Assembly: GCF_011927825.1 (NCBI RefSeq)
Contig: NZ_JAATJI010000001.1
Coordinates: 2,586,001-2,650,000 of the forward strand
Reading direction: 5' to 3'
Length of the DNA: 64,000 nucleotides
Source of the DNA: Polymorphobacter fuscus
GTDB lineage: Bacteria > Pseudomonadota > Alphaproteobacteria > Sphingomonadales > Sphingomonadaceae
Part shown: in pieces, positions 39,320 through 52,956 of the stretch
How the letters are laid out: each line of letters opens with the position of its first letter
Position numbering within the stretch: position 1 is the first letter of the stretch
Notes under the pieces: model-generated
What the model was told of the DNA's origin: nothing
Databases searched by the model: none
The model's input: the letters and a program-made list of their open reading frames with translations, nothing else
Made by a program: the position numbers and the translations under genes

Positions 39320-39420
39320 TTATCGCAAAGTTTGTCGAGCGGCATTTTGTGCCCTTTGACAAATTATGACTTGATATGTGGCGATCGGGTGACACAAGCC
39401 GAGCGAGGCGCATAGCTAAT

Positions 39421-39428
39421 GTATGATA
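39421..39428. promoter_or_regulatory. Candidate GntR operator 3 (GTATGATA)
   Basis: Third copy of the octamer, in TAATGTATGATAACA, 15 bases upstream of the GH36 start codon and just before its AGGGAGA ribosome binding site. Repressor binding here would sit over the 5' end of the transcript. Confidence 0.4.
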
Positions 39429-39442
39429 ACAGGGAGATACCG

Positions 39443-41659
39443 ATGCAGGCGCGGCTCATTCGGGGGGTGTTGCTTGCCGGCCTGTGCCTCTCGCCCCTGG
39501 CGTCGGCGTCGGCCGAGTCCGCCTATGACGCAGGCACGCGCGTCTTCCGCCTCGATGGCGGCGATGTCACCTATGCATTCAAGGTGGACGGGCAGGGACT
39601 GTTGCAATCCGTCTATTGGGGCGCCCGGCTGGCAAACGGCGACCCGGTCGATTCGCCGGCGATCAAGGGCCTCAGCGGGTTCGATGTGGCCGCCAATGTG
39701 GTGCCGCAGGAACATGCCGGCTGGGGCGGCGGACTGTTCGCCGAAGCGGCGCTGAAGATCGCCTTTCCCGACGGCAATCGCGACCTCGTCCTCGTCTATG
39801 CCGCGCACCGGCTGGAACGCGATGGCGTCACCGTCCAGTTGCGCGACATCAGCCGTCCGGTGAACGTGACGCTGCGCTACACGATCGACCGCGACACCGG
39901 CATCGTCGGCCGGTCGGCCACGATCGTGAACGGGACCGCAGGCGATATCCGCGTCGACCAGGCGATGTCGGGCACCTATGTCCTGCCGGTCGGGCGGGAT
40001 TATCAGCTGAATTTCCTGACCGGCCGCTGGGGCGCGGAATGGACGCGGCAGCAACGCCCGGTATCGGCCGGCGCCACCGTGCTCGAAAGCCGCCGTGGTT
40101 CGACCGGCAGCGAGAACAACCCCTTTTTCGCCATATCGCGCGCCGGCGCGACGACGGAGGCCGACGGCCCGGTCTGGTTCGGGGCGCTGGCGTGGAGCGG
40201 ATCGCACCGCATCACCGTCGACCAGGATGTTGCCGGCCGGGTGCGGGTGACCGGCGGCTACAACCCGTTCGATTTCGCCTATCGGCTCGGCGCCGGGGAA
40301 AAGCTCGAAACCCCGATCTTCTACGCCGGCCATACCGGGCGCGGCATGGGCGAGGCGTCACGCCTGTTCCATCGTTTCCAGCGCGACACGATCCTGCCGC
40401 ATGCCGCCGACAAGGCGCCGGCACTGCGCAAGATCCTCTACAACAGCTGGGAAGCCACCGAATTCAAGGTCGACGAGGCGGGGCAGGTGGCGCTCGCCGG
40501 AAAGGCGGCCAAGATCGGCGTCGAACGCTTTGTCATGGACGATGGCTGGTTCGGCGCGCGCAACAACGACAAGGCGGGGCTGGGCGACTGGACCGTCAAT
40601 CGGCAGAAATTCCCCAACGGGCTGAAGCCGCTGATCAGCCGCGTCAACGCGCTCGGCATGGAATTCGGCCTGTGGGTCGAACCCGAGATGGTCAACGCCG
40701 ACAGCGACCTGTATCGCGCTCATCCCGATTGGGTGATCGCCTTCGACGGGCGCCCGCGCACCGAAGGGCGCAACCAGATGGTCCTCAACCTCGCCAAGCC
40801 CGAGGTGCGCGACCATCTGCTCAAGGTGCTCGACGAACTGCTGACGACCAACAGGATCGCCTTTCTGAAATGGGATTATAACCGCAACTGGTCGGAACCC
40901 GGCTGGCTCGGCGCGGCGCCGGCCGACCAGCAGCGGATCTGGGTCGATTACGTCCGCAACCTCTATGGCATTCTTGCCGAGCTGCGGCGGCGGCATCCGG
41001 GGGTGGAGATTGAAAGCTGTTCGGGCGGCGGCGGCCGCGTCGATCTCGGCATCATGGGGCTGACCGACCAGGTCTGGGCGTCGGACAACACCGATCCGGT
41101 CGATCGCCTGCTGATCCAGGATGGCTTCACCCAGGCCTATGCGCCCGGCACGATGATGGCGTGGGTCACCGACAGCCCCAATTGGCTCAACAAGCGCTCG
41201 ACGCCGCTGTCGTTCCGCTTCCTGTCCGCAATGCAGGGCGGGCTCGGCATCGGCACCAACCTCAATCATTGGGTCGCGGAGGATTTCGCCACCGCCAGTA
41301 CCTATGTCGCGGCCTACAAGCGCATCCGCGCCACGGTGCAGCGCGGTGATCTGTATCGGCTGGTCCGGCCGACGCCGGGGGACGTCGAATCGACGACGCT
41401 TTATGTGGCGGCCGACAAGTCGCAGGCGGCGCTGTTCACGCTGGTCCAGGGCACCCACCGGCTCGATCCGCGTACCCCGATCCGGTTGCAAGGCCTCGAC
41501 CCGGCGGCGCGCTACCGGATCGAACGGATGGACGGCGCGGCGCTGCCCGAAGGTGTGCCGGCGGTCGCCAGCGGCGCCTATTGGATGGGCCGCGGGCTCG
41601 ACGTGCCGTTGCGCGGGGACTTCCAGGGTGCCGGCTTCATCCTGACCCGGGGCAGCTGA
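39443..41659 (+). CDS. Secreted GH36 alpha-galactosidase
   Basis: Releases galactose from alpha-galactosides such as melibiose or raffinose. The 738-residue protein has a signal peptide (MQARLIRGVLLAGLCLSPLASASA), a beta-sandwich N-terminal domain and a TIM barrel. D478 in FLKWDYNRNW is the nucleophile and D548 in WASDNTD the acid/base, the same numbers I recall for Geobacillus AgaA. Further conserved parts are WVEPEMVN and SCSGGGGRVD. Most GH36 enzymes are cytoplasmic, so export to the periplasm is notable and fits uptake through the divergent receptor. AGGGAGA precedes ATG 39443. The stop overlaps dgoK by one base. Confidence 0.94.
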   Translation: MQARLIRGVLLAGLCLSPLASASAESAYDAGTRVFRLDGGDVTYAFKVDGQGLLQSVYWGARLANGDPVDSPAIKGLSGFDVAANVVPQEHAGWGGGLFAEAALKIAFPDGNRDLVLVYAAHRLERDGVTVQLRDISRPVNVTLRYTIDRDTGIVGRSATIVNGTAGDIRVDQAMSGTYVLPVGRDYQLNFLTGRWGAEWTRQQRPVSAGATVLESRRGSTGSENNPFFAISRAGATTEADGPVWFGALAWSGSHRITVDQDVAGRVRVTGGYNPFDFAYRLGAGEKLETPIFYAGHTGRGMGEASRLFHRFQRDTILPHAADKAPALRKILYNSWEATEFKVDEAGQVALAGKAAKIGVERFVMDDGWFGARNNDKAGLGDWTVNRQKFPNGLKPLISRVNALGMEFGLWVEPEMVNADSDLYRAHPDWVIAFDGRPRTEGRNQMVLNLAKPEVRDHLLKVLDELLTTNRIAFLKWDYNRNWSEPGWLGAAPADQQRIWVDYVRNLYGILAELRRRHPGVEIESCSGGGGRVDLGIMGLTDQVWASDNTDPVDRLLIQDGFTQAYAPGTMMAWVTDSPNWLNKRSTPLSFRFLSAMQGGLGIGTNLNHWVAEDFATASTYVAAYKRIRATVQRGDLYRLVRPTPGDVESTTLYVAADKSQAALFTLVQGTHRLDPRTPIRLQGLDPAARYRIERMDGAALPEGVPAVASGAYWMGRGLDVPLRGDFQGAGFILTRGS

Positions 41660-42528
41660 TGACAGGCAAGGGCTTTCTGGCGATCGACTGGGGCACGACC
41701 AACCGGCGTGTCTATCATGTGCTGGACGACGGCCGGGTCGTCGACCGGCTCGATGATGCCGAGGGCGTCGCCGCGCTGTCGCCAGAGGCCTATCCGGCCG
41801 CGATCGCGGCGCTGCGGGCGCGTTTCGGCGCGCTGCCGGTCCTGGCGGCGGGGATGGTCGGTTCGACGCGCGGCTGGCGCGAAGCGCCCTATGTCGCGGC
41901 GCCGGCGGGGCTGGAAACCATTGCCGCCGGGTTGTTGGCGGTCGGCGACGGCGTCGCCATCGTGCCCGGCGTCTGCCAGGCCGACGGCGACCGCCCGGAC
42001 GTGATGCGCGGCGAGGAAGTGCAGCTGCTCGGGGCGGTCGCTGCCGGCCTGGTGCCCGCCGATGCCGTGCTGGTGCAGCCGGGCACCCACAGCAAATGGG
42101 TGACGATGGCGGGCGGCCGCATCGCCGGCTGGCGGACGCGCATGACCGGCGAACTGTTTGCGCTGTTGCGCGACCGGAGCGTGCTGGCGGAGATGATGCA
42201 GGGTCCGGTGGCGCCGGGTCCGGCCTTTTGCGAGGGTGTGGACCGGCGCGGCGAGGATCTGACGGCGGCGTTGTTCGAGGTGCGGGCCGGGGTCCTGCTC
42301 GGTCGCCGCGCCGCAGCGGACGGGGCTGCCTTTGCCAGCGGCTTGCTGATCGGCGCCGAAATCGCCGCGGCCGGGGATGCGGGCGCGCCAGTGCATCTGT
42401 TGTCCGAAGGGCCGTTGGCTGCGCTTTACACGGCCGCCATCGTGCGGCTCGGCGGCACCGCCGAACATATCGACAGCCACCGCGCCTTTGTGGCCGGCAT
42501 CCATCGCCTTTGGGAGCTTTCCAGATGA
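41659..42528 (+). CDS. dgoK: 2-dehydro-3-deoxygalactonokinase
   Basis: Phosphorylates 2-keto-3-deoxygalactonate with ATP. The 289-residue protein has the DgoK-type ATP-binding start IDWGTTNRRVYHV, then LAAGMVGSTRGWREAPYV, GEEVQLLGA and QPGTHSKWV, all characteristic of the family. It begins on the last base of the GH36 stop (TGATG) and overlaps dgoA (ATGA), so galactoside cleavage, kinase and aldolase are made from one message. Confidence 0.95.
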   Translation: MTGKGFLAIDWGTTNRRVYHVLDDGRVVDRLDDAEGVAALSPEAYPAAIAALRARFGALPVLAAGMVGSTRGWREAPYVAAPAGLETIAAGLLAVGDGVAIVPGVCQADGDRPDVMRGEEVQLLGAVAAGLVPADAVLVQPGTHSKWVTMAGGRIAGWRTRMTGELFALLRDRSVLAEMMQGPVAPGPAFCEGVDRRGEDLTAALFEVRAGVLLGRRAAADGAAFASGLLIGAEIAAAGDAGAPVHLLSEGPLAALYTAAIVRLGGTAEHIDSHRAFVAGIHRLWELSR

Positions 42529-43157
42529 CCGACGCCTTCGCCCGGTTCACCCGCGCCTTTGCCGCTTGCCCGCTGGTGGCGATCCTGCGCGGCATCACCC
42601 CGGGCGAAGTCGATGCCGTCGGCGACGCGCTGGTCGGTGCCGGCTTCACCCTGATCGAGGTGCCGCTCAACTCTCCCGATCCGTTCGACAGCATCGCTCG
42701 CCTTGCCGCCCGGCTGGGCGATCGCGCGATGGTGGGTGCCGGCACCGTGCTCGATCCGGCGCAGGTCGATCGCGTCGCGGCAAATGCCGGCACGCTGATC
42801 GTCTCGCCGAACAGCGACCCGCGCGTCATTCGCGCCAGCGTTGCCGCCGGGCTGATCTCGCTGCCGGGCTATGCCACCCCGACCGAAGCCTTTGCCGCGC
42901 TCGCGGCGGGCGCCCATGGTCTCAAGCTGTTCCCTGCCGACGCGACCCCGCCTGCCATATTGAAGGCGCACCGCGCCGTGCTGCCCCGAACAGTGCCGGT
43001 GCTGGCGGTCGGCGGCATCACGCCCGATACCATGACGCCATGGCGCGACGCCGGCGCTGATGGCTTCGGTCTCGGTTCCGCCCTCTACAAGCCCGGCAAG
43101 CCGGCCGGCGCCGTTGCCGCCGACGCCGCGGCGTTCGTTGCCGCCTGGAACCGCTGA
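42525..43157 (+). CDS. dgoA: 2-dehydro-3-deoxy-6-phosphogalactonate aldolase
   Basis: Class I aldolase that cleaves KDPGal into pyruvate and glyceraldehyde 3-phosphate, the last step of the De Ley-Doudoroff route. The 210-residue protein shows the catalytic Glu E45 in IEVPLNSP and the Schiff-base lysine K134 in GLKLFPAD, followed by AVGGITPDT. The N-terminal VAILRGI is typical of DgoA/Eda proteins; the LNSPDP segment favours the galactonate form. It overlaps dgoK by ATGA, and the MFS gene follows after two bases. Confidence 0.95.
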   Translation: MTDAFARFTRAFAACPLVAILRGITPGEVDAVGDALVGAGFTLIEVPLNSPDPFDSIARLAARLGDRAMVGAGTVLDPAQVDRVAANAGTLIVSPNSDPRVIRASVAAGLISLPGYATPTEAFAALAAGAHGLKLFPADATPPAILKAHRAVLPRTVPVLAVGGITPDTMTPWRDAGADGFGLGSALYKPGKPAGAVAADAAAFVAAWNR

Positions 43158-43159
43158 GC

Positions 43160-44437
43160 ATGGCCGTCACCGCGGCGCCGCCTGGCCATGCGTCCAGCGA
43201 TGAGTCGGTCAGCGCGCCGGGCCTGCAGGCGTTCATGTTCGCGCTGTTCTTCATCTTCGGCGGCATCACCAGCCTCAACGATGTCCTCATCCCCAAGCTC
43301 AAGGGCCTGTTCGCGCTCAACTATGCCCAGGCGATGCTGGTCCAGTCGGCGTTCTTTGCCGCCTATCTGGTGGTCTCGCTGCCCGCTGCCGCCATCGTGC
43401 AGCGGCTCGGCTATTTGCGCACCGCGACGGTCGGGCTCGGCGTGATGACGACCGGCTGCCTGTTGTTCCTGCCGGCGACCGCTTCGGCGCAATATCCGAT
43501 GTTCCTGTTCGCGCTGTTCGTGCTGGCCGCCGGCATCACCATCGTCCAGGTCGTCGCCAATCCGCTGATGTCGCTGCTCGGCCCTGTCCGCACCGCGTCG
43601 AGCCGGCTGACCTTCGCCCAGGCCTTCAACGCGCTCGGCACGACGGTCTTTCCCTATGTCGGCGCGATCCTGATCCTTGGCAGTCTTGGCGGCGCCGACC
43701 CGGCGCAGTTGGCGCCTGCCGAACGCAGCGCCTATCTGGTGGCGGAAAGTGCCGTCATCCGGCACGCCTATCTCGGCCTTGCCGCCGCGCTGCTGCTGGT
43801 CGCGGCTGCGGTCTGGGCAATGCGCAACCGGCTGGCGGATGTGCATGCACGCGGCCCCGTGCTGCAGGCGTTCGACCTGCTGCGCCGCCGCCGCTTCGCC
43901 CTCGGCGCCTTGTCGATCTTTCTCTATGTCGGCGCCGAAGTCGCCATCGGCTCGCTGATCGTCAGCTTCCTGATGGCCGGCGATGTCATGGGCCTCGGCG
44001 GCGAAGCGGCGGGGCGGATGCTGGCGCTGTACTGGGGCGGCGCGCTGGTCGGGCGTTTCATCGGCTCGTTCGTGCTGCGGCTGCTGCGTCCGGGGCTTGT
44101 GCTGGCCGGCGTCAGCGCCGCCGCGATCACGCTGCTGCTGCTGGCGGCAACGCTGGCCGGACCCGCCGCCGGCTGGGCCCTGCTGGCGATCGGCCTGACC
44201 AACGCCATCATGTTTCCAACCATCTTCAGCCTGGCGATCGAGGGTCTGGGTCCGCGTGCCGCCGAAGGCTCGGGCATCATCTGCATGGCGATCGTCGGCG
44301 GCGCCGTCATCCCGCCGCTGACCGGCGTGCTGGCGGATGCGGCGGGCCTGCGCGTGGCGCTGGTGCTGCCGGCGCTCTGCTATCTCGTCATCACCGGCTA
44401 TGGCATGGCGACGACACGCGGCGCGGCGCGAGGCTGA
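43160..44437 (+). CDS. FucP/GluP-type sugar:H+ symporter
   Basis: Major-facilitator transporter of 425 residues with about twelve membrane segments. The opening FMFALFFIFGGITSLNDVLIPKLKGLFALNYAQAMLVQSAFFAAY is the hallmark of the FucP/GluP/NagP family of fucose, glucose/galactose and GlcNAc importers. It lies two bases after dgoA, so it is in the same operon and probably brings in galactose released by the periplasmic GH36. This would be a second inner-membrane route beside the AraFGH-like system. Confidence 0.92.
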   Translation: MAVTAAPPGHASSDESVSAPGLQAFMFALFFIFGGITSLNDVLIPKLKGLFALNYAQAMLVQSAFFAAYLVVSLPAAAIVQRLGYLRTATVGLGVMTTGCLLFLPATASAQYPMFLFALFVLAAGITIVQVVANPLMSLLGPVRTASSRLTFAQAFNALGTTVFPYVGAILILGSLGGADPAQLAPAERSAYLVAESAVIRHAYLGLAAALLLVAAAVWAMRNRLADVHARGPVLQAFDLLRRRRFALGALSIFLYVGAEVAIGSLIVSFLMAGDVMGLGGEAAGRMLALYWGGALVGRFIGSFVLRLLRPGLVLAGVSAAAITLLLLAATLAGPAAGWALLAIGLTNAIMFPTIFSLAIEGLGPRAAEGSGIICMAIVGGAVIPPLTGVLADAAGLRVALVLPALCYLVITGYGMATTRGAARG

Positions 44438-44779: not shown

Positions 44780-47314
44780 ATGTTTTCGCGATTCATAGCT
44801 ATTCATGCGCGGGCGCTGGCGACCGTCAGTGCGTTGGCATTCGCCGCGCCGGTTCTCGCCGCCCAGCCTGTTGAAACCGCCGCCGTCGCGGACGCGGCTG
44901 TCGCCGACGCGGCTGTCGAAACCGAAAGCGAGATCATCGTCACCGGGGCATCCCGCGCACAGCGCCGTTTTGATGCTTCTTTTGCAGTCAATTCGCTTTC
45001 CCAAGACGAAGTGCGGCGGATCGCCCCGAAGAATTATGCCGAGCTGCTTGGCATCATGCCCGGCATCCATGTCGAGGCGACCGGGGGCGAAGTGCAGAAC
45101 GTCACCCGCGTGCGCGGCATCCCGACCGACCGCGGCTACCTTATCTTCCAGCAGGACGGCCTGCCGCTCTTTCACGAAATCGACGGCGTGTTCTTCAACT
45201 CCGGCGACGGCATGAATCGGTTCGATCTGATGACGGAACGCGTCGAGGTCGTGCGCGGCGGCCCGGCGCCGATCTATGCCAGCAGCGCTGCGGCCATTGC
45301 CAACAACATCACTGTCACTGGCAGCGAAGAATCGCGCGGCATGGCGCAGGTCACGCTCGGTGACACCGGCCTTTATCGGCTTGACCTCGTGCAGTCCGGC
45401 AAGATTGCCGACCGCACCTTCTATGCGATCGGCGGCTTCCTGCGCCATCACGACGGATACCGCGACAATGGCTATCCCAATGACAAGGGGGGCCAGATCC
45501 GCGCCAACATCAAGCGTGAGCTCGACAATGGCTTCATCAAGCTGTCGGGCACCTATCTCAACGACAAGAACACCTTTTATCTGCCGATTCCGCTCGCTGA
45601 CCCGCGCAACCCCGCGGTTTCGCTCGATCCGTTCATCAACTTCTTCACCGGCACGATGAACTCGCCATCGCTCCGCGGGCTGGACATCAGCTATCGCGAC
45701 GGCAACAACAGTGTTCAGACCCTGCAGCGCGATCTCGCCGATGGCCGTCATATCCGCTTCGGCAACATCGGCCTGCAGTATGAGGGCGATTTCGGCGGCT
45801 GGCTCGTTGCCGCCAACCTTGGCTACACCAAGGGCAAGAACAGTTTCGATGCCTTTTATTCAACGACCAATCCCGTCGACGCTCGGACCTTTGCGGCTGG
45901 CTTCCTGCCTGCCGCGCGAACCGCGTTCGGCACCGCTGCCACCCCGGTCGCTCGGCTCGGCTATGCAATTGCCGGCTCGAACGGCACCGCGGTCTATGAC
46001 CCTTCCGCGGCTTCGGGCCTCGTCATGTCGGGCCAGTACCGCGCCGTGGAATCGGATTTTTACTCGGGCCAGGGCACATTGAGTGTCACCCGCAAGTTCG
46101 TCACCGGAATCGGAACGCATGATGTCAAGGCCGGCATCTATGGCGCCGCTTATGGCGCCACCAACCTCGCCGTCTACAGCGACATGCTGATCGAAGTCGC
46201 CGGCAAGCCGCGCACGCTCGATCTGGTCGCCTATGGCGCGTCGGGCCAGGTGCTGGGGTATGTGACCGACAACGGCACTTTGCGCGCTACCACCACGCTC
46301 AACCAGGGCGAAGCCGATGGCAAGGTCCTGGCGCTTTTCGCCAACGACACCTGGGAAATCGTGCCGAGCCTGCGGCTTGACGCAGGCATTCGCCACGAAT
46401 GGTATGATTATTCGGGCTATTCGCTGCTGTCGACCGGGGGAATTGACCTCGGCAATGCGACAACCCTGGCCGACAACGCCACGCGCGGTTTCACCGGCGC
46501 CCGAGTGACAACGAAGCTGAAACCCACGGCGACCAACTGGACGGTCGGCCTCGGTTATGACTTCACCTCCAACCTCGGCGCCTATGGCCGCGTTTCGACC
46601 CTCGAGGTGCCGCCGCAGGCAACGGTCGCGTTGAGCACGACGCCGACCATAGTCACCACCGTGGCGCGCCAGTATGAGGCGGGGATACGCGCCGACTTCG
46701 GCCGATCCTACCTGTTCGTCACCGGCTTCTACACCAAGTTCGACCCGTTCAATGCCTCGTTCGTGGCGTTCAATCCGGTCACGGGCCGCAATGACCAGTC
46801 CGTGCCGTTCATCGGCGAAGCCATCGTCAAGGGTGTCGAAGTCGACGGCCGGTTCGTTCCCGTCGACTGGCTTTCGTTGGCCGGATCCGTCACCTTTGCC
46901 GATCCCCAATATCGCAACCTGCAGAACACCGCGGGCGCCGATCCAAGCGCGGTCAACGGCAACCAGATCATCCGTGAACCCAAGGTGTTCGGCAATATCC
47001 GCCCGACCCTGTTCTTCGAAACCGGCAAGACCCAGATCGAAGTCTATGGCCGCCTCGACTTCGTCGGCAAACGCTTTGTCGACCTGTTCAACCAGACATC
47101 GATGGCCGCTTATCAGACGCTGGCTGCCGGCGTGACCGTCAACCGCGATGCTTGGCGCTTCCAGCTCGTCGGTGACAATCTGACCAATGCCAGGGGCGTG
47201 ACCGAAGGCAACCCGCGGACCGACCAGCTCGCCGGCCAGGACGCTTCGGAGGCCATCTACGGCCGCCCATTGTTCGGCCGCAATTTCCGCTTCATCGTCA
47301 GCCGCAGCTGGTAA
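44780..47314 (+). CDS. TonB-dependent receptor (844 aa)
   Basis: Outer-membrane receptor with a signal peptide ending at VLAAQ, a short alanine-rich repeat (AAVADAAVADAAV, encoded by about 2.5 copies of a 15-base unit near 44880-44925), a TonB box EIIVTGAS, a plug (YAELLGIMPGIHVEATGG, RVRGIPTDRGYLIFQQDGLPLF) and a barrel ending RFIVSRSW. It heads an operon with a DUF218 protein (58-base gap) and a GH92 glycosidase, so a mannose-containing glycan or glycophosphate is a reasonable cargo (inference). Translation may be held back by the upstream stem-loop. Confidence 0.92.
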   Translation: MFSRFIAIHARALATVSALAFAAPVLAAQPVETAAVADAAVADAAVETESEIIVTGASRAQRRFDASFAVNSLSQDEVRRIAPKNYAELLGIMPGIHVEATGGEVQNVTRVRGIPTDRGYLIFQQDGLPLFHEIDGVFFNSGDGMNRFDLMTERVEVVRGGPAPIYASSAAAIANNITVTGSEESRGMAQVTLGDTGLYRLDLVQSGKIADRTFYAIGGFLRHHDGYRDNGYPNDKGGQIRANIKRELDNGFIKLSGTYLNDKNTFYLPIPLADPRNPAVSLDPFINFFTGTMNSPSLRGLDISYRDGNNSVQTLQRDLADGRHIRFGNIGLQYEGDFGGWLVAANLGYTKGKNSFDAFYSTTNPVDARTFAAGFLPAARTAFGTAATPVARLGYAIAGSNGTAVYDPSAASGLVMSGQYRAVESDFYSGQGTLSVTRKFVTGIGTHDVKAGIYGAAYGATNLAVYSDMLIEVAGKPRTLDLVAYGASGQVLGYVTDNGTLRATTTLNQGEADGKVLALFANDTWEIVPSLRLDAGIRHEWYDYSGYSLLSTGGIDLGNATTLADNATRGFTGARVTTKLKPTATNWTVGLGYDFTSNLGAYGRVSTLEVPPQATVALSTTPTIVTTVARQYEAGIRADFGRSYLFVTGFYTKFDPFNASFVAFNPVTGRNDQSVPFIGEAIVKGVEVDGRFVPVDWLSLAGSVTFADPQYRNLQNTAGADPSAVNGNQIIREPKVFGNIRPTLFFETGKTQIEVYGRLDFVGKRFVDLFNQTSMAAYQTLAAGVTVNRDAWRFQLVGDNLTNARGVTEGNPRTDQLAGQDASEAIYGRPLFGRNFRFIVSRSW

Positions 47315-47372
47315 GCGGACGAAGATCGCGCCGGCCATCGCGCCGGCGCCTCCCTGCTCTGGAGACGTGTCG

Positions 47373-48623
47373 ATGCGGCTTGTGCTTGGCGCCTTGATGC
47401 TTGCGGCCGTATTGGCAGGACCGGTGCCGGTGCTGGCACAGGACCCGCCAGGCTATGCGCGTCCTTTCGCCGATACGCTCGAAACGCGCGTATTTCCGTT
47501 GTTTGCCATGCTGCACGCCGCCCCGGGCTGGACGGCGGCGCTGCGCGCTGACCCCCAACTCGCCCGGCTGGCGTCTGCCCGTGCGGCGCGCATCCCGCCC
47601 GACGCCTGCGCCCCGGCACCGCAATGCCTCGCCGATGCCTGGCTATGGACGACAGACGACATCGCCAAGGTTTCGGAACGGTTGCGGCTGATCATGCGCG
47701 ACCGCGCGCTGGCCGACGCGCTTGTGGTGCGTCAGATGCGGCCTTCGGGTCGCTTTGCACGGCATGCAGCCCTTGCCGATGCGGATTTGCTGGGTGCTGC
47801 CTGGGCCGATGCTGCCAACGGCATCAACCGCGTCATCGCGATCTATGCCAAGGGCGAGCCGCCGCGATATCCCAAAATCGATGCAATGATCTTCGATGTT
47901 GCGCGGCCCGAGTATCCACAGCTGCTGGCGGCGCACGGCACGAGCATTGCCGCGCTGCCGCCCCCGGACGACACCGTGTTCGATCCCGTGCAGCGTTATG
48001 CGACGGGGCTGCTGATGATCAACGAGCGGGCCGATGCCGGCGCCTTCCGGCCGCTGCTGGGCGGCGACAATGCCGCGACCGTTCGTGCGATTGCCGGCAC
48101 CGACTGGCGCGGCGAGCGTCATTCCGCGCTGCTTGTTTTCGGCCACGGCCCGGAGGACGCCCAGTCGCGGACCGGTGTCATGGGACATATCCGGATGCGC
48201 ATCGCGGCGGACTTGTTCGCGCGGCGGCTGGCGCCGTTCATCATCGTGTCGGGCGGCAATGTCCATCCCAACCGCACGCCGTTCAACGAGGCGGTGGAGA
48301 TGAAGCGCCTGTTGATCGAACAGCATGGCGTTCCGGCCGATCGCATCCTGATCGAACCGCATGCGCGCCACACCACCACCAATTTGCGCAATACGGCGCG
48401 GCTGCTGCTCGCAGCCGGCTTTCCGGCCGACCGGCCCGCGCTGGTGGTGTCGGACCACGCGACGATCCGCTACATCGGCAGTGCCGAACTATCCGTGCGC
48501 AATCTGCGTGAAATGGGGTTGCAGCCCGGCACGCTGGCGCCTGGCCCCGATCGCTTTTCGCTGATGTTCAAGCCCGATCCGGCGGCATTCCATGTCGAAG
48601 TTGCCGATCCGCTCGATCCATGA
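47373..48623 (+). CDS. Exported DUF218 (YdcF/ElyC/SanA-like) protein
   Basis: A 416-residue protein with a signal peptide (MRLVLGALMLAAVLAGPVPVLAQ), an N-terminal part of about 220 residues that I do not recognise, and a C-terminal DUF218 domain (about 235-400; LLVFGHGPED, IIVSGGNVHPNRTPFNEAVEMKRLL, DRILIEPHARHTTTNLRNTARLL). DUF218 proteins are linked to cell-envelope glycan metabolism, but their reaction is poorly known. ATG 47373 lies eight bases after GGAG; a GTG at 47367 is too close. It overlaps the GH92 gene by ATGA, so the two are coupled. Confidence 0.88.
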   Translation: MRLVLGALMLAAVLAGPVPVLAQDPPGYARPFADTLETRVFPLFAMLHAAPGWTAALRADPQLARLASARAARIPPDACAPAPQCLADAWLWTTDDIAKVSERLRLIMRDRALADALVVRQMRPSGRFARHAALADADLLGAAWADAANGINRVIAIYAKGEPPRYPKIDAMIFDVARPEYPQLLAAHGTSIAALPPPDDTVFDPVQRYATGLLMINERADAGAFRPLLGGDNAATVRAIAGTDWRGERHSALLVFGHGPEDAQSRTGVMGHIRMRIAADLFARRLAPFIIVSGGNVHPNRTPFNEAVEMKRLLIEQHGVPADRILIEPHARHTTTNLRNTARLLLAAGFPADRPALVVSDHATIRYIGSAELSVRNLREMGLQPGTLAPGPDRFSLMFKPDPAAFHVEVADPLDP

Positions 48624-50647
48624 ACGTGCGGTTCAGAGCATTTCGCTTCCTTGTCGCGTTGGCAGCGACCGTCGTTTCCGCCGGCTCGGCGCCAGCTGTC
48701 GCGCGCCCGCCGGGGCTGTTGGTCGATCCCTTTGTCGGCACGCTCGCTGACTTCGGCCAACTCAGTCCGGCGGCGGTTGCGCCCTATGGGATGGTCCAGA
48801 TCGGTCCCGATACAGATCCGGCAAATCATGCCGGATATGACCATGCAGCGACGCGACTTGTCGGGTTTTCGCATACGCGCGGCGTCGGTGTCGGCTGTGG
48901 CGGTGCCGGCGGCGATGTGCGGATAAATGTCGGCTATGGCGGTGATCCTCTCGCGGCCCCGATCGACAAGCGCCGCGAACGTGCGCATGCCGGATATTAT
49001 CGCGTCGCCTACGGCAGGGGCATCATCGCCGAGATGACCGCGACACGCGGCACCGGCGCCATTCGCTTCACCATGCCCCGTTCGGGCCCGGTGACGGTCA
49101 GCGTCGACTTCGGGCCTGGCTATGCAAAGCGGATCGCTGCGAAATGGCAGGCAAAGGCCGACGGCGATCTGCACGCCGATTTTTCGGCCGGCACCGTCTG
49201 CGATGCCGGGATCTATCACCTGCATTCCGCGACTCGGCTGTTGCGGGCCGGCAAGCCTGTGACGGCGCACTGGCAAGGCGATGGATCGCGCGCGACCTTG
49301 ATGCTGACGGTGCGCAGCGGCGATGTCGTCGAATTGCGCACTGGCCTTTCGGCGGTCGATGCCGCCGCAGCTGCTGCCGTGCGCGAGACCGAAATGGGCG
49401 ACATGTCGTTCGATCATGTTGCCGCGCGCGCTTTGGCGGATTGGAACACGCAATTGTCGCGCCTGACGATTTCCGGCAGCCGCGCCGAACAGGCATTGTT
49501 CTACACCGCGCTTTTTCGCGTCATGCAAACGCCCGTGGCGATCACCGATCCCGATGGCCGGACGCGGGGCAGCGACGGCCGCATCCTGCAGCTCGACCCG
49601 GGCGAACAACATTATGCCAGCTGGGCGATGTGGGACAATTACCGGACCCAGATGCCGCTGCTCGCGCTCATCGACCCGGTGCGTGCCGAGGCGATCGCGC
49701 GCGCGCTGGTGCGGCTCTACGCCAGCGGCAAACAGCGCTGGGCAACCTCGGACGAACCCTTCCTGACCGTGCGGACCGAGCACGCCGGCATCGCTCTGCT
49801 CGATTTCCGCCGCAAGGGTATCATCGGGTTCGACGCAAAGGCGGCGCTGTCCGGCATGGTGGCGGAAAGCTCGACGCTGGCCCGCAACACGCCCGATGAG
49901 CAGATCGAGGCCGCCTATGACGACTGGGCGACCGCTGAGCTTGCGGCCGACCTTGGCGAACCCGACCTTGCCCGCAGCTTTCACGACAAGGCGTTGGGCT
50001 ATCGACCCATGTGGCTCGACACGTTTCGCGATTTGGGGCCGGACGCCGATGTGGTCAAGGCGCGCGGCCTGTACCAGGGAACGCTGGCGCAGTATCGCTG
50101 GGCCCCCGTCTTCGACCTGCCATGGCTGGCACAGGCAATGGAACCGCGGCTGATCCCCGAACTGGAGCGCTTTTTCGGCGACAATCTTTTCAACATTACC
50201 AACCAGCCTGACCTGCACGTGCCCTATCTGCTGGCCTGGGCCGGCCGGCGTGATGCGAGCCTGGCAATTGTTCGCCGCTATCTGTCCTTGCCGGTGGCAC
50301 ATCGCTACACGAATTCGGGCGTCCGCCCCGAACCCTGGATTGGCCGCAGCTTTGCGCTGGCACCGCAAGGCTTTGCCGACGGCATGGACGACGATGCGGG
50401 CACGATGTCCGCCTGGTACATCTGGGCGACGCTGGGACTTTATCCCCTGACACCGGGCGAACCACGCTATCTCGTGACAAAGCCAATCCCGAAGGTCACC
50501 GTTTTGAGACCTTTTCACGACGTCGACATCGTTCTGCGAAAGGGCCGGGATGGGCTTTTGACCATTGGAGGCCAAGAGGTCACGGGCATCTTTGTCGAGC
50601 ACACGATGCTCGATGGGATAGCTGCTGCAAAAACAGCGCAGAAATGA
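48620..50647 (+). CDS. Exported GH92 family glycosidase with Gln at the usual catalytic acid
   Basis: GH92 enzymes are Ca2+-dependent exo-alpha-mannosidases. The 675-residue protein has a signal peptide, the N-terminal VDPFVGT...APYGMVQIGPDT signature, and the C-terminal GMDDDAGTMSAWYIWATLGLYP signature. Where family members normally read NEP(S/D)xH, with Glu as the catalytic acid, this protein reads NQPDLHVPYL with Q529. A Glu-to-Gln change at this place is known from a GH92 enzyme that cleaves mannose-1-phosphate-6-mannose linkages, where no acid is needed. The sequence is somewhat short for GH92 (often about 740). It is the last gene of the receptor-DUF218-GH92 operon. Confidence 0.9.
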   Translation: MNVRFRAFRFLVALAATVVSAGSAPAVARPPGLLVDPFVGTLADFGQLSPAAVAPYGMVQIGPDTDPANHAGYDHAATRLVGFSHTRGVGVGCGGAGGDVRINVGYGGDPLAAPIDKRRERAHAGYYRVAYGRGIIAEMTATRGTGAIRFTMPRSGPVTVSVDFGPGYAKRIAAKWQAKADGDLHADFSAGTVCDAGIYHLHSATRLLRAGKPVTAHWQGDGSRATLMLTVRSGDVVELRTGLSAVDAAAAAAVRETEMGDMSFDHVAARALADWNTQLSRLTISGSRAEQALFYTALFRVMQTPVAITDPDGRTRGSDGRILQLDPGEQHYASWAMWDNYRTQMPLLALIDPVRAEAIARALVRLYASGKQRWATSDEPFLTVRTEHAGIALLDFRRKGIIGFDAKAALSGMVAESSTLARNTPDEQIEAAYDDWATAELAADLGEPDLARSFHDKALGYRPMWLDTFRDLGPDADVVKARGLYQGTLAQYRWAPVFDLPWLAQAMEPRLIPELERFFGDNLFNITNQPDLHVPYLLAWAGRRDASLAIVRRYLSLPVAHRYTNSGVRPEPWIGRSFALAPQGFADGMDDDAGTMSAWYIWATLGLYPLTPGEPRYLVTKPIPKVTVLRPFHDVDIVLRKGRDGLLTIGGQEVTGIFVEHTMLDGIAAAKTAQK

Positions 50648-51669: not shown

Positions 51670-52956
51670 ATGCCCGCACCCCGCATCCTCGGTCTCGATT
51701 TCGGGACCACCAACTCCGTCGCCGCAGTCGCGCGCGGCGACGGATCCGACCTTGTCGTCCTCGACAGCCCGGACGGCGGCACGACCGGGTTTCGATCGGC
51801 ATTGTGCTTCTGGGAGGATGAGGCGGTCCGCGGCGGCATCGCCGTCGAAGCCGGCCCGCAGGCCATCGCCGAATATCTGGAATTTCCCCAAGGCAGCCGG
51901 TTCCTGCAGTCGTTCAAATCGGTCGCGGCGAGCCCGAGCTTCGAACATGCGACGATCTTCGAGCGGCGGTACCGCTTCGAAGATCTCGGCCGCACCTTCC
52001 TGCGGACAATGGCGGGCCACAGCCGTGGCAGCATGGCCGATGTCGACCGGCTGATCATCGGTCGGCCGGTGGTTTACGCGGGTCACGCCCCCGACACTGT
52101 GCTGGCGCGGCAGCGCTATGACCTGATGTTCGATGGCATCGCTGCCGAGCGGCACTATGTCTACGAGCCGCTCGGCGCCGCCTTCAGCTACGCCACGCGC
52201 ATCACCGATCCCGCGACGATCCTGGTCGCCGATTTTGGCGGCGGGACCAGCGATTTCTCGGTTGTCCGCATCGAGGCGCCGGGCGCCGCGCGGCGCTGCA
52301 TCCCGCTCGGCTATGCCGGCGTCGGCATTGCCGGCGACCGCTTCGATGCGCGGATCGTCGAACAGCTTGTCATGCCGCTGCTCGGTTTGGGCGGCAGCTA
52401 CCGCTCCTTCGGCAAGGTGCTTGAAATTCCGCGCGGCTATTTTGCCGACTTTGCCGACTGGTCGCGGCTGGCGCTGATGCGCAACCGCAAGACCGTTGCC
52501 GAGCTGGAAAAGCTGCAGCGTACGGCGCTCGATCCGGGCGCCATCGGCCGCATGATCGCGATCATCGAGGAAGAGCTGGGGTTTCGGCTCCACGAGGCCG
52601 TCGGCAAGGTCAAACGCGACCTGTCATCCGCGGAGACCGCGCATTTTCACTTCAGCGGCGCCGGGCTGGCGATCGAAGCCGACGTCACCCGCGCTGCCTT
52701 CGAACGCTGGATCGCGCCCGAGATCGCCGAAATCGCGGCCGCCGTCGACCGGGCCCTGGCCGCTGCGGCGGTCGATGCCGGCGCGATCGACCGTGTGTTC
52801 CTGACAGGCGGCTCGTCGCTGATCCCGTGCATCGGACGGCTGTTCGCCGACCGCTTCGGTGCCGATCGCATCGCCACCGGCGGCGAACTGACGTCGATCG
52901 CCCATGGCCTCGCGCTGATCGGCGCGCAGGACGACCTAACCGCCTGGACGGCGTAG
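51670..52956 (+). CDS. Hsp70-family protein, YegD-like
   Basis: A 428-residue actin/Hsp70-fold ATPase without a substrate-binding domain. It has phosphate-1 LGLDFGTTNS, phosphate-2 LVADFGGGTSDF and the adenosine motif FLTGGSSLIPCI. The insert FADWSRLALMRNRKTVAELEKLQRTAL is typical of YegD, a putative chaperone of unknown clients. It is convergent with the AI-2E-family gene; its stop codon lies inside a short tandem hairpin repeat. Confidence 0.92.
   Translation: MPAPRILGLDFGTTNSVAAVARGDGSDLVVLDSPDGGTTGFRSALCFWEDEAVRGGIAVEAGPQAIAEYLEFPQGSRFLQSFKSVAASPSFEHATIFERRYRFEDLGRTFLRTMAGHSRGSMADVDRLIIGRPVVYAGHAPDTVLARQRYDLMFDGIAAERHYVYEPLGAAFSYATRITDPATILVADFGGGTSDFSVVRIEAPGAARRCIPLGYAGVGIAGDRFDARIVEQLVMPLLGLGGSYRSFGKVLEIPRGYFADFADWSRLALMRNRKTVAELEKLQRTALDPGAIGRMIAIIEEELGFRLHEAVGKVKRDLSSAETAHFHFSGAGLAIEADVTRAAFERWIAPEIAEIAAAVDRALAAAAVDAGAIDRVFLTGGSSLIPCIGRLFADRFGADRIATGGELTSIAHGLALIGAQDDLTAWTA

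Follow-up and report, generated by a model that had tools for sequence, protein, structure and literature searches.

The 64,000-nucleotide stretch of Polymorphobacter fuscus DNA analysed here (contig NZ_JAATJI010000001.1, positions 2,586,001 to 2,650,000; the window) encodes on its forward strand a GH92 glycoside hydrolase of 675 amino acids (48620..50647), which we call the query. We found that residue 486, where the family carries its general acid, is Gln in the query and in the best 120 of the 257 homologs found. The gene forms a conserved unit together with those of a TonB-dependent receptor and a DUF218 protein, and GH92 enzymes with Gln at the acid position do not form a single clade. 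On balance, and with some reserve, we lean towards the query being an alpha-mannosyl-phosphate-type hydrolase.

The general-acid position of the query

Both GH92 Pfam domain models recognized the query above their gathering scores (PF07971, 212.2 bits against 24.6; PF17678, 105.6 bits against 34.5), with E-values for the two models of 4.7e-30 and 1.9e-62. This confirms the family assignment made in an earlier reading of these letters (the sequence-only reading). The NCBIfam GH92 subfamily model TIGR01180 scored below its cut-off (193.3 bits vs 249.55), and the top-scoring NCBIfam model, which bears the name lectin, gave 200 bits and did not reach its cut-off of 800. The query is a divergent member of GH92, and TIGR01180 is not the defining test for the CAZy family. 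Membership by sequence does not need the acid Glu, which is typical of the family but is also missing from CcMan5 (CcGH92_5; PDB 2xsg, 4aq0), the mannosyl-phosphate hydrolase of Cellulosimicrobium cellulans. A GH92 fold is predicted for the query (predicted local distance difference test, pLDDT, 86, but below 50 at residues 480-485). Foldseek gave 2xsg as the best match to this model, and VIA-align gave several GH92 chains tied. Residues 1-28 (...APAVA/RPPG; 48620..48703) look by eye like a probable Sec signal peptide.

Published papers name as GH92 general acids Glu533 of Bt3990, Glu535 of BT3130, Glu531 of BT3965 and Glu489 of SpGH92, and as base residues Asp642 and Asp644 of Bt3990 (PMC10167667, PMC5930347, PMC5215778). 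We mapped the published acids through printed chain alignments, with offsets from chain position of +19 for Bt3990, +16 for BT3130 and 0 for BT3965; these are consistent with the entry numbering in the structural alignment. Residue 531 of BT3965 is the Glu within ITEGFTMQYTW, chain residue 514 of Bt3990 (533) is the Glu within AFTEGNSWHYTW, and chain residue 519 of BT3130 (535) is the Glu within PFTEGNAWQY. These three acids all sit on the Glu of an xEG...WQY-type motif, and the query counterpart is Q486 (CAG, 50075..50077), in the acid-loop sequence GLYQGTLAQYRW (GLYQ486GT). Chain residues 623 and 625 of Bt3990 (642 and 644) are the aspartates within GDEDNG, and they align with D590 and D592 of the query (D590-D591-D592, 50387..50395). 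The stretch that the sequence-only reading had named as the calcium and base region does read MDDDAGTMSAWY (residues 589-600).

That reading had placed the lost acid at Q529, where the family's NEP motif reads NQPDLH. The motif does read so (N528-H533, 50201..50218; Q529 is CAG at 50204-50206), and most GH92 rows have Glu where the query has Gln. However, residue 529 lies 43 residues after Q486, in a stretch whose Bt3990 counterpart is GNQPIQH, and there the distance from the acid to the Gln is 69 residues (533 to 602). NQP is present in Bt3990 and in 5 of 18 control GH92 open reading frames (ORFs), every one with a Glu acid; the acid of these controls was read in 15 of 20 chosen regions, and that of L128, L129, L138, L140 and L144 was not. 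Since the published acids map to Q486 and NQP occurs in Glu-acid enzymes, Q529 as a mutated general acid is ruled out, we give that version practically no credence, and the change from NEP to NQP is uninformative about the acid. The parallel drawn with a mannosyl-phosphate GH92 holds in part: CcMan5 does have Gln at the acid position (536, YQGT), but it retains Glu in its NEP equivalent (NEIDLQ). Alignment thus puts the acid at a residue other than 529, but that residue is again Gln and not Glu. The suggestion of a mannosyl-phosphate hydrolase, tied though it was to the wrong residue, is plausible because the acid is absent at Q486.

A homolog search found 257 proteins. In the best 120 of these the acid position was Gln without exception (120/120), and position 529 held 103 Gln and 17 Glu, so Q529 is no sequencing slip. 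Y485, Q486, G487, T488 and the base pair were unvarying in a 45-row alignment, and W338, D339, R342 and the base aspartates were unvarying in all 36 rows of the query's own clade. By residue mapping D339 is Asp353 of BT3130, a -1 subsite residue (PMC12858847).

Gln-acid lineages and subfamily marks

The best 80 of at least 109 relatives were retained. The 41 proteins from a CcMan5 search comprised 22 with Gln at the acid, 11 with Glu and 8 not covering it (P0135, P0139-P0142, P0144, P0145, P0158), and 31 of the 41 entered an alignment of 113 rows. At the acid position this alignment has 90 Gln, 22 Glu and 1 row that does not cover it. Scoring the acid together with the NxP residue (529 in the query) gave Gln/Gln in 24 rows, the combination of the query; Gln/Glu in 66, that of the CcMan5, Bacteroides and Paenibacillus types; Glu/Gln in 5; Glu/Glu in 17; and 1 row uncovered. 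Glu/Gln is the combination of L048, L051, L058, L065 and L086, and also of Bt3990 and the 5 control ORFs with NQP. Gln at the acid and Gln at the NxP residue are not coupled.

Four lineages have Gln at the acid: the query clade (Sphingomonas, Sphingobium, Novosphingobium, Caulobacter, Pseudoxanthomonas, Chromatocurvus and others), a Bacteroides/Opitutae type, a Paenibacillus type and the CcMan5 type. Lineages with a Glu acid branch among these four, and one of them, L048 and L086 from metagenome-assembled genomes of Porticoccaceae and Spongiibacteraceae, is sister to the query clade (bootstrap 100, SH-like approximate likelihood ratio 99 in a 48-row tree). Trees were built from 95 rows, after near-duplicates and P0158 were dropped from the 113, and from 48 of those 95, which also served for approximately unbiased (AU) tests. 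With the acid and NxP columns excluded, parsimony required 4 acid changes and 3 NxP changes on both trees. The AU test rejected a single all-Gln clade (p 1e-46), a group of the query clade with the CcMan5 type (p 0.0008) and, more modestly, a group of the query clade with the Bacteroides type (p 0.0096); the all-Gln group was defined by residue, and a look at the first tree preceded the naming of the other two. The 95-row tree carried warnings of long branches and uneven letter composition. Because these tests reject a single Gln clade, the query lineage probably lost its acid separately from the CcMan5 lineage. In some lineages the change may instead have been a reversal from Gln to Glu; the Gln codons CAG and CAA are a single base change from GAG and GAA.

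R385, E387 (R385-T-E387, 49772..49780) and Y485 are unvarying in all four lineages with a Gln acid and in the Glu-acid sisters and absent in 14 ordinary GH92 rows, a group comparison that omits P0160 and P0147-P0150. In CcMan5 the equivalents of R385 and Y485 (Tyr535) and Gln536 reportedly have a role with the phosphate. The stretch from N528 to D590 measures 62-73 residues in this subfamily vs 40-42 in ordinary GH92 (62 in the query, 72 in CcMan5), and that from the acid to N528 measures 42-45 vs 49-69, with the CcMan5 type an exception at 52-53. D587, R314, Y168 and Y341 are unvarying or nearly so in the query clade and missing from the five nearest Glu-acid relatives; none of these four clade-specific ionizable residues returned by our filter lies in the acid loop.

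Like CcMan5, the query has Gln at the acid within GLYQGT (GLYQ536GT in CcMan5), the base aspartates, equivalents of R385, E387 and Y485 and a long stretch from N528 to the base. Unlike it, the query reads NQPDLH rather than NEIDLQ, has A490 and R87 where CcMan5 has Trp and Asn, and has a shorter stretch from the acid to N528; identity is 30% over 629 aligned residues, and the tree positions are separate. With the alpha-1,2-mannosidase Bt3990 (PDB 2wvx) the query shares the GH92 fold, the base pair and the NQP motif, but Bt3990 retains Glu533 and has a +1 site pair, His584-Glu585 (PMC10167667). L048 and L086 share R385, E387, Y485 and GLYxGTLWQYRW with the query and read NQPDIQ, but they have Glu at the acid and are adjoined by myo-inositol catabolism genes.

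The gene unit and its phosphoesterase neighbors

Upstream of the query on the same strand lie a TonB-dependent receptor (44780..47314) and a DUF218 protein that appears by eye to have a signal peptide (47367..48623) and whose gene shares 4 bp (ATGA) with the start of GH92. Both partners lie near the GH92 gene in the window, and likewise in 26 of the 35 query-clade loci that we fetched, counting related loci as separate. The order is receptor, DUF218, GH92 in most loci, and a few have the partners behind the GH92 gene or divergent from it. In 20 aligned DUF218 partners P331, A333, R334, H335, T336-T338 and N339 do not vary, a pattern that agrees with the Thr/His/Glu triad suggested for SanA, which is also a DUF218 protein (PMC12176290). 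The AlphaFold model of the DUF218 partner (pLDDT 85) had no match in the PDB at E <=0.001, and YdcF (3ca8) ranked second at E 0.026. The query-type gene is the sole GH92 of its own genome, of 4 of 7 query-clade genomes (G110-G113) and, in a larger set, of 8 of 22. Among the titles and abstract openings of the matches listed by a literature search, with subscription papers mostly outside it, there was no mention of Gln-acid GH92s in sphingomonads or of a unit of TonB receptor, DUF218 and GH92.

PI-PLC-C1 was found in 8 of 36 query-clade loci (the window included), either between the receptor and DUF218 or behind GH92. Among the 22 genomes of the 35 fetched loci searched for PI-PLC and GH92, 17 have PI-PLC-C1 (one a 53-residue fragment and one with an internal stop) vs 4 of 98 genomes around the window's, sets that are not taxon-matched. 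The query's own genome and its relative G043, whose GH92 is 72% identical to the query, lack it. Purple-acid-phosphatase-like matches occur in 2 of 36 query-clade loci and in 18 of 19 Paenibacillus-type loci, where they come from tblastn at 24-29% identity and one (L067) was confirmed by Pfam; the phosphatase-like match of L044 was not confirmed. Phosphoesterases therefore adjoin two of the four Gln-acid lineages, the query clade and the Paenibacillus type. They were found in none of the 6 Glu-acid sister loci, which are mostly short, and in 1 of 25 control loci (L140, PI-PLC; the controls are 20 hand-chosen regions and L090-L094). Sulfatase-like matches were found in 3 of 36 query-clade loci (L025, L036, L039). 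GH125 adjoins GH92 in 3 of 14 Bacteroides-type loci (L055, L062, L064), and the lone CcMan5-type locus fetched (L089) has no TonB receptor or DUF218 match.

In L067 (4234-15199) and 17 more Paenibacillus-type loci the Gln-acid GH92s are large and lie near the purple-acid-phosphatase-like gene. The L067 GH92 has 1921 amino acids with CBM6 and F5/8 domains, and one S-layer-domain gene stands between it and the phosphatase-like gene.

In the Glu-acid sister loci L048 (1666-5916) and L086 (2671-15270), iolC is the gene immediately downstream of GH92. In L086 there are in addition iolD, truncated where the contig ends, and mannonate dehydratase, mannose-isomerase-like and 2-keto-3-deoxygluconate-kinase-like genes. 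The head group of plant glycosylinositol phosphorylceramide (GIPC) is made of mannose, glucuronate and myo-inositol. The L086 gene set fits these three parts, and the two sister loci are possible loci for mannosyl-glucuronosyl-inositol head groups; the GIPC composition is partly supported by PMC11496612. Myo-inositol catabolism was not found in the 22 query-clade genomes searched for it (20 genomes of query-clade loci, the query's own and G043): a DUF2090/IolC match and an IolD match above cut-off were each found in 0 of 22, and 4 of the 22 had IolD matches of about 210-220 bits vs a cut-off of 715.

Candidate substrates and mechanism

A phosphate leaving group requires no protonation. With Gln in place of the acid Glu, AnGH92A loses its ordinary mannosidase activity (PMC12858847) and Bt3990 is strongly impaired (PMC10167667), so that an invariant Gln is hard to explain in an enzyme for ordinary mannosides. 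Gln is native in CcMan5, which according to one citing paper was in 2018 the single GH92 with demonstrated hydrolysis of Man-PO4-Man linkages (PMC5930347) and according to another is used for uncapping Man-PO4-Man glycans (PMC9246025). Taken together these three points make us favor a mannosyl-phosphate-type hydrolase. The unvarying base and active-site residues, the features shared with CcMan5 and the phosphoesterases beside two of the four Gln-acid lineages also speak for it. The query would be a secreted, probably periplasmic and presumably Ca-dependent exo-alpha-mannosidase in which the Asp base pair and the conserved active-site residues are kept but the general acid is gone (Glu to Gln at 486). 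It would act with inversion and free mannose from an alpha-mannosyl linkage to a leaving group that can depart unprotonated, most likely an alpha-mannosyl phosphodiester such as CcMan5 cleaves in Man-PO4-Man. The unit of TonB-dependent receptor, DUF218 and GH92 may then import and process a phosphorylated mannose-containing compound. The carrier of the bond may be yeast-type phosphomannan, if CcMan5 is the guide, or a mannosyl-inositol-phosphate, as the gene context suggests.

Several observations weigh against a mannosyl-phosphate substrate. The query clade does not group with that of CcMan5, so its substrate need not match. Neither a GH76 nor a second GH92 was found in the query's own genome, which is therefore unlike a general yeast-mannan degrader, and no PI-PLC-C1 was found there. 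R385, E387 and Y485 are as conserved in the Glu-acid sisters as in the Gln-acid lineages and hence cannot be called phosphate ligands; the subfamily marks do not track the acid and are therefore no proof of phosphate binding. The phosphoesterase link fails in Bacteroides-type (0/14) and CcMan5-type (0/1) loci. PI-PLC-C1 also lies beside ordinary-looking GH92s in which the acid was not read (L140; G136:C8:7248-11742), and these come from the genomes of L044 and L045 (Caulobacter and Novosphingobium). Bt3990 retains some activity when its acid is replaced by Ala or Gln (PMC10167667), and D587, an Asp beside the base motif that is present in 35 of 36 query-clade rows and in 0 of the 5 nearest Glu-acid relatives, may be a stand-in acid.

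The residual activity of the Bt3990 Gln variants and the clade-specific D587, R314, Y168 and Y341 would suit an alpha-mannosidase of the ordinary kind, perhaps a slow one, in which another residue or water serves as the acid. We consider this quite improbable, since Gln at the acid inactivates AnGH92A, Gln does not vary over the best 120 homologs though Glu is one base away, and within the acid loop the filter turned up no new ionizable residue. A non-catalytic, lectin-like or decayed protein would agree with the loss of the canonical acid and with the name of the best NCBIfam model, but the unvarying base pair and Y485, Q486, G487 and T488 make it very improbable.

The inositol link suggests another substrate, a mannosylated inositol-phosphate head group freed by PI-PLC, whether from fungal mannosylinositol phosphorylceramide, plant GIPC, actinobacterial phosphatidylinositol mannoside or a glycosylphosphatidylinositol anchor. 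Here the bond cut would be Man-O-sugar or Man-O-inositol, and a phosphate or uronate of the substrate would supply the proton, which is conjecture. PI-PLC-C1 at two different positions in query-clade loci, its frequency in query-clade genomes and iolC behind GH92 in the nearest Glu-acid sisters, with an L086 gene set that fits a GIPC head group, speak for this. The lack of PI-PLC-C1 in the query's own genome, the absence of DUF2090/IolC and above-cut-off IolD matches from all 22 genomes and the PI-PLC beside ordinary-looking GH92s speak against it, and we hold it to be possible but unlikely. Equally tentative is a wider proposal: GH92 would have lost its general acid several times independently, and in one lineage, mostly of sphingomonads, the acid-less enzyme would be the core of an uptake unit (TonB receptor, DUF218 enzyme and often PI-PLC) that removes mannose from phosphoinositol-linked glycans, with the phosphate of the substrate replacing the acid.

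Uncapping of Man-PO4-Man yields mannose-6-phosphate glycans useful for lysosomal enzymes, and the literature excerpts examined name no GH92 of this kind other than CcMan5. If the query is a mannosyl-phosphate-type hydrolase, its large clade, with an acid probably lost separately and a conserved gene context, would supply more such enzymes. It would also offer a series of natural acid losses that can be compared with Glu-acid sisters, and give a lead to bacterial use of phosphorylated mannosides.

Elsewhere in the window, just upstream of the TonB receptor (39419-44437), are a GH36 alpha-galactosidase, a 2-keto-3-deoxygalactonokinase, an aldolase-like ORF (by eye) and an MFS transporter, apparently a cluster for galactoside and galactonate utilisation. 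A 428-amino-acid ORF at 51670-52956 resembles, by eye, a relative of Hsp70-type chaperones.

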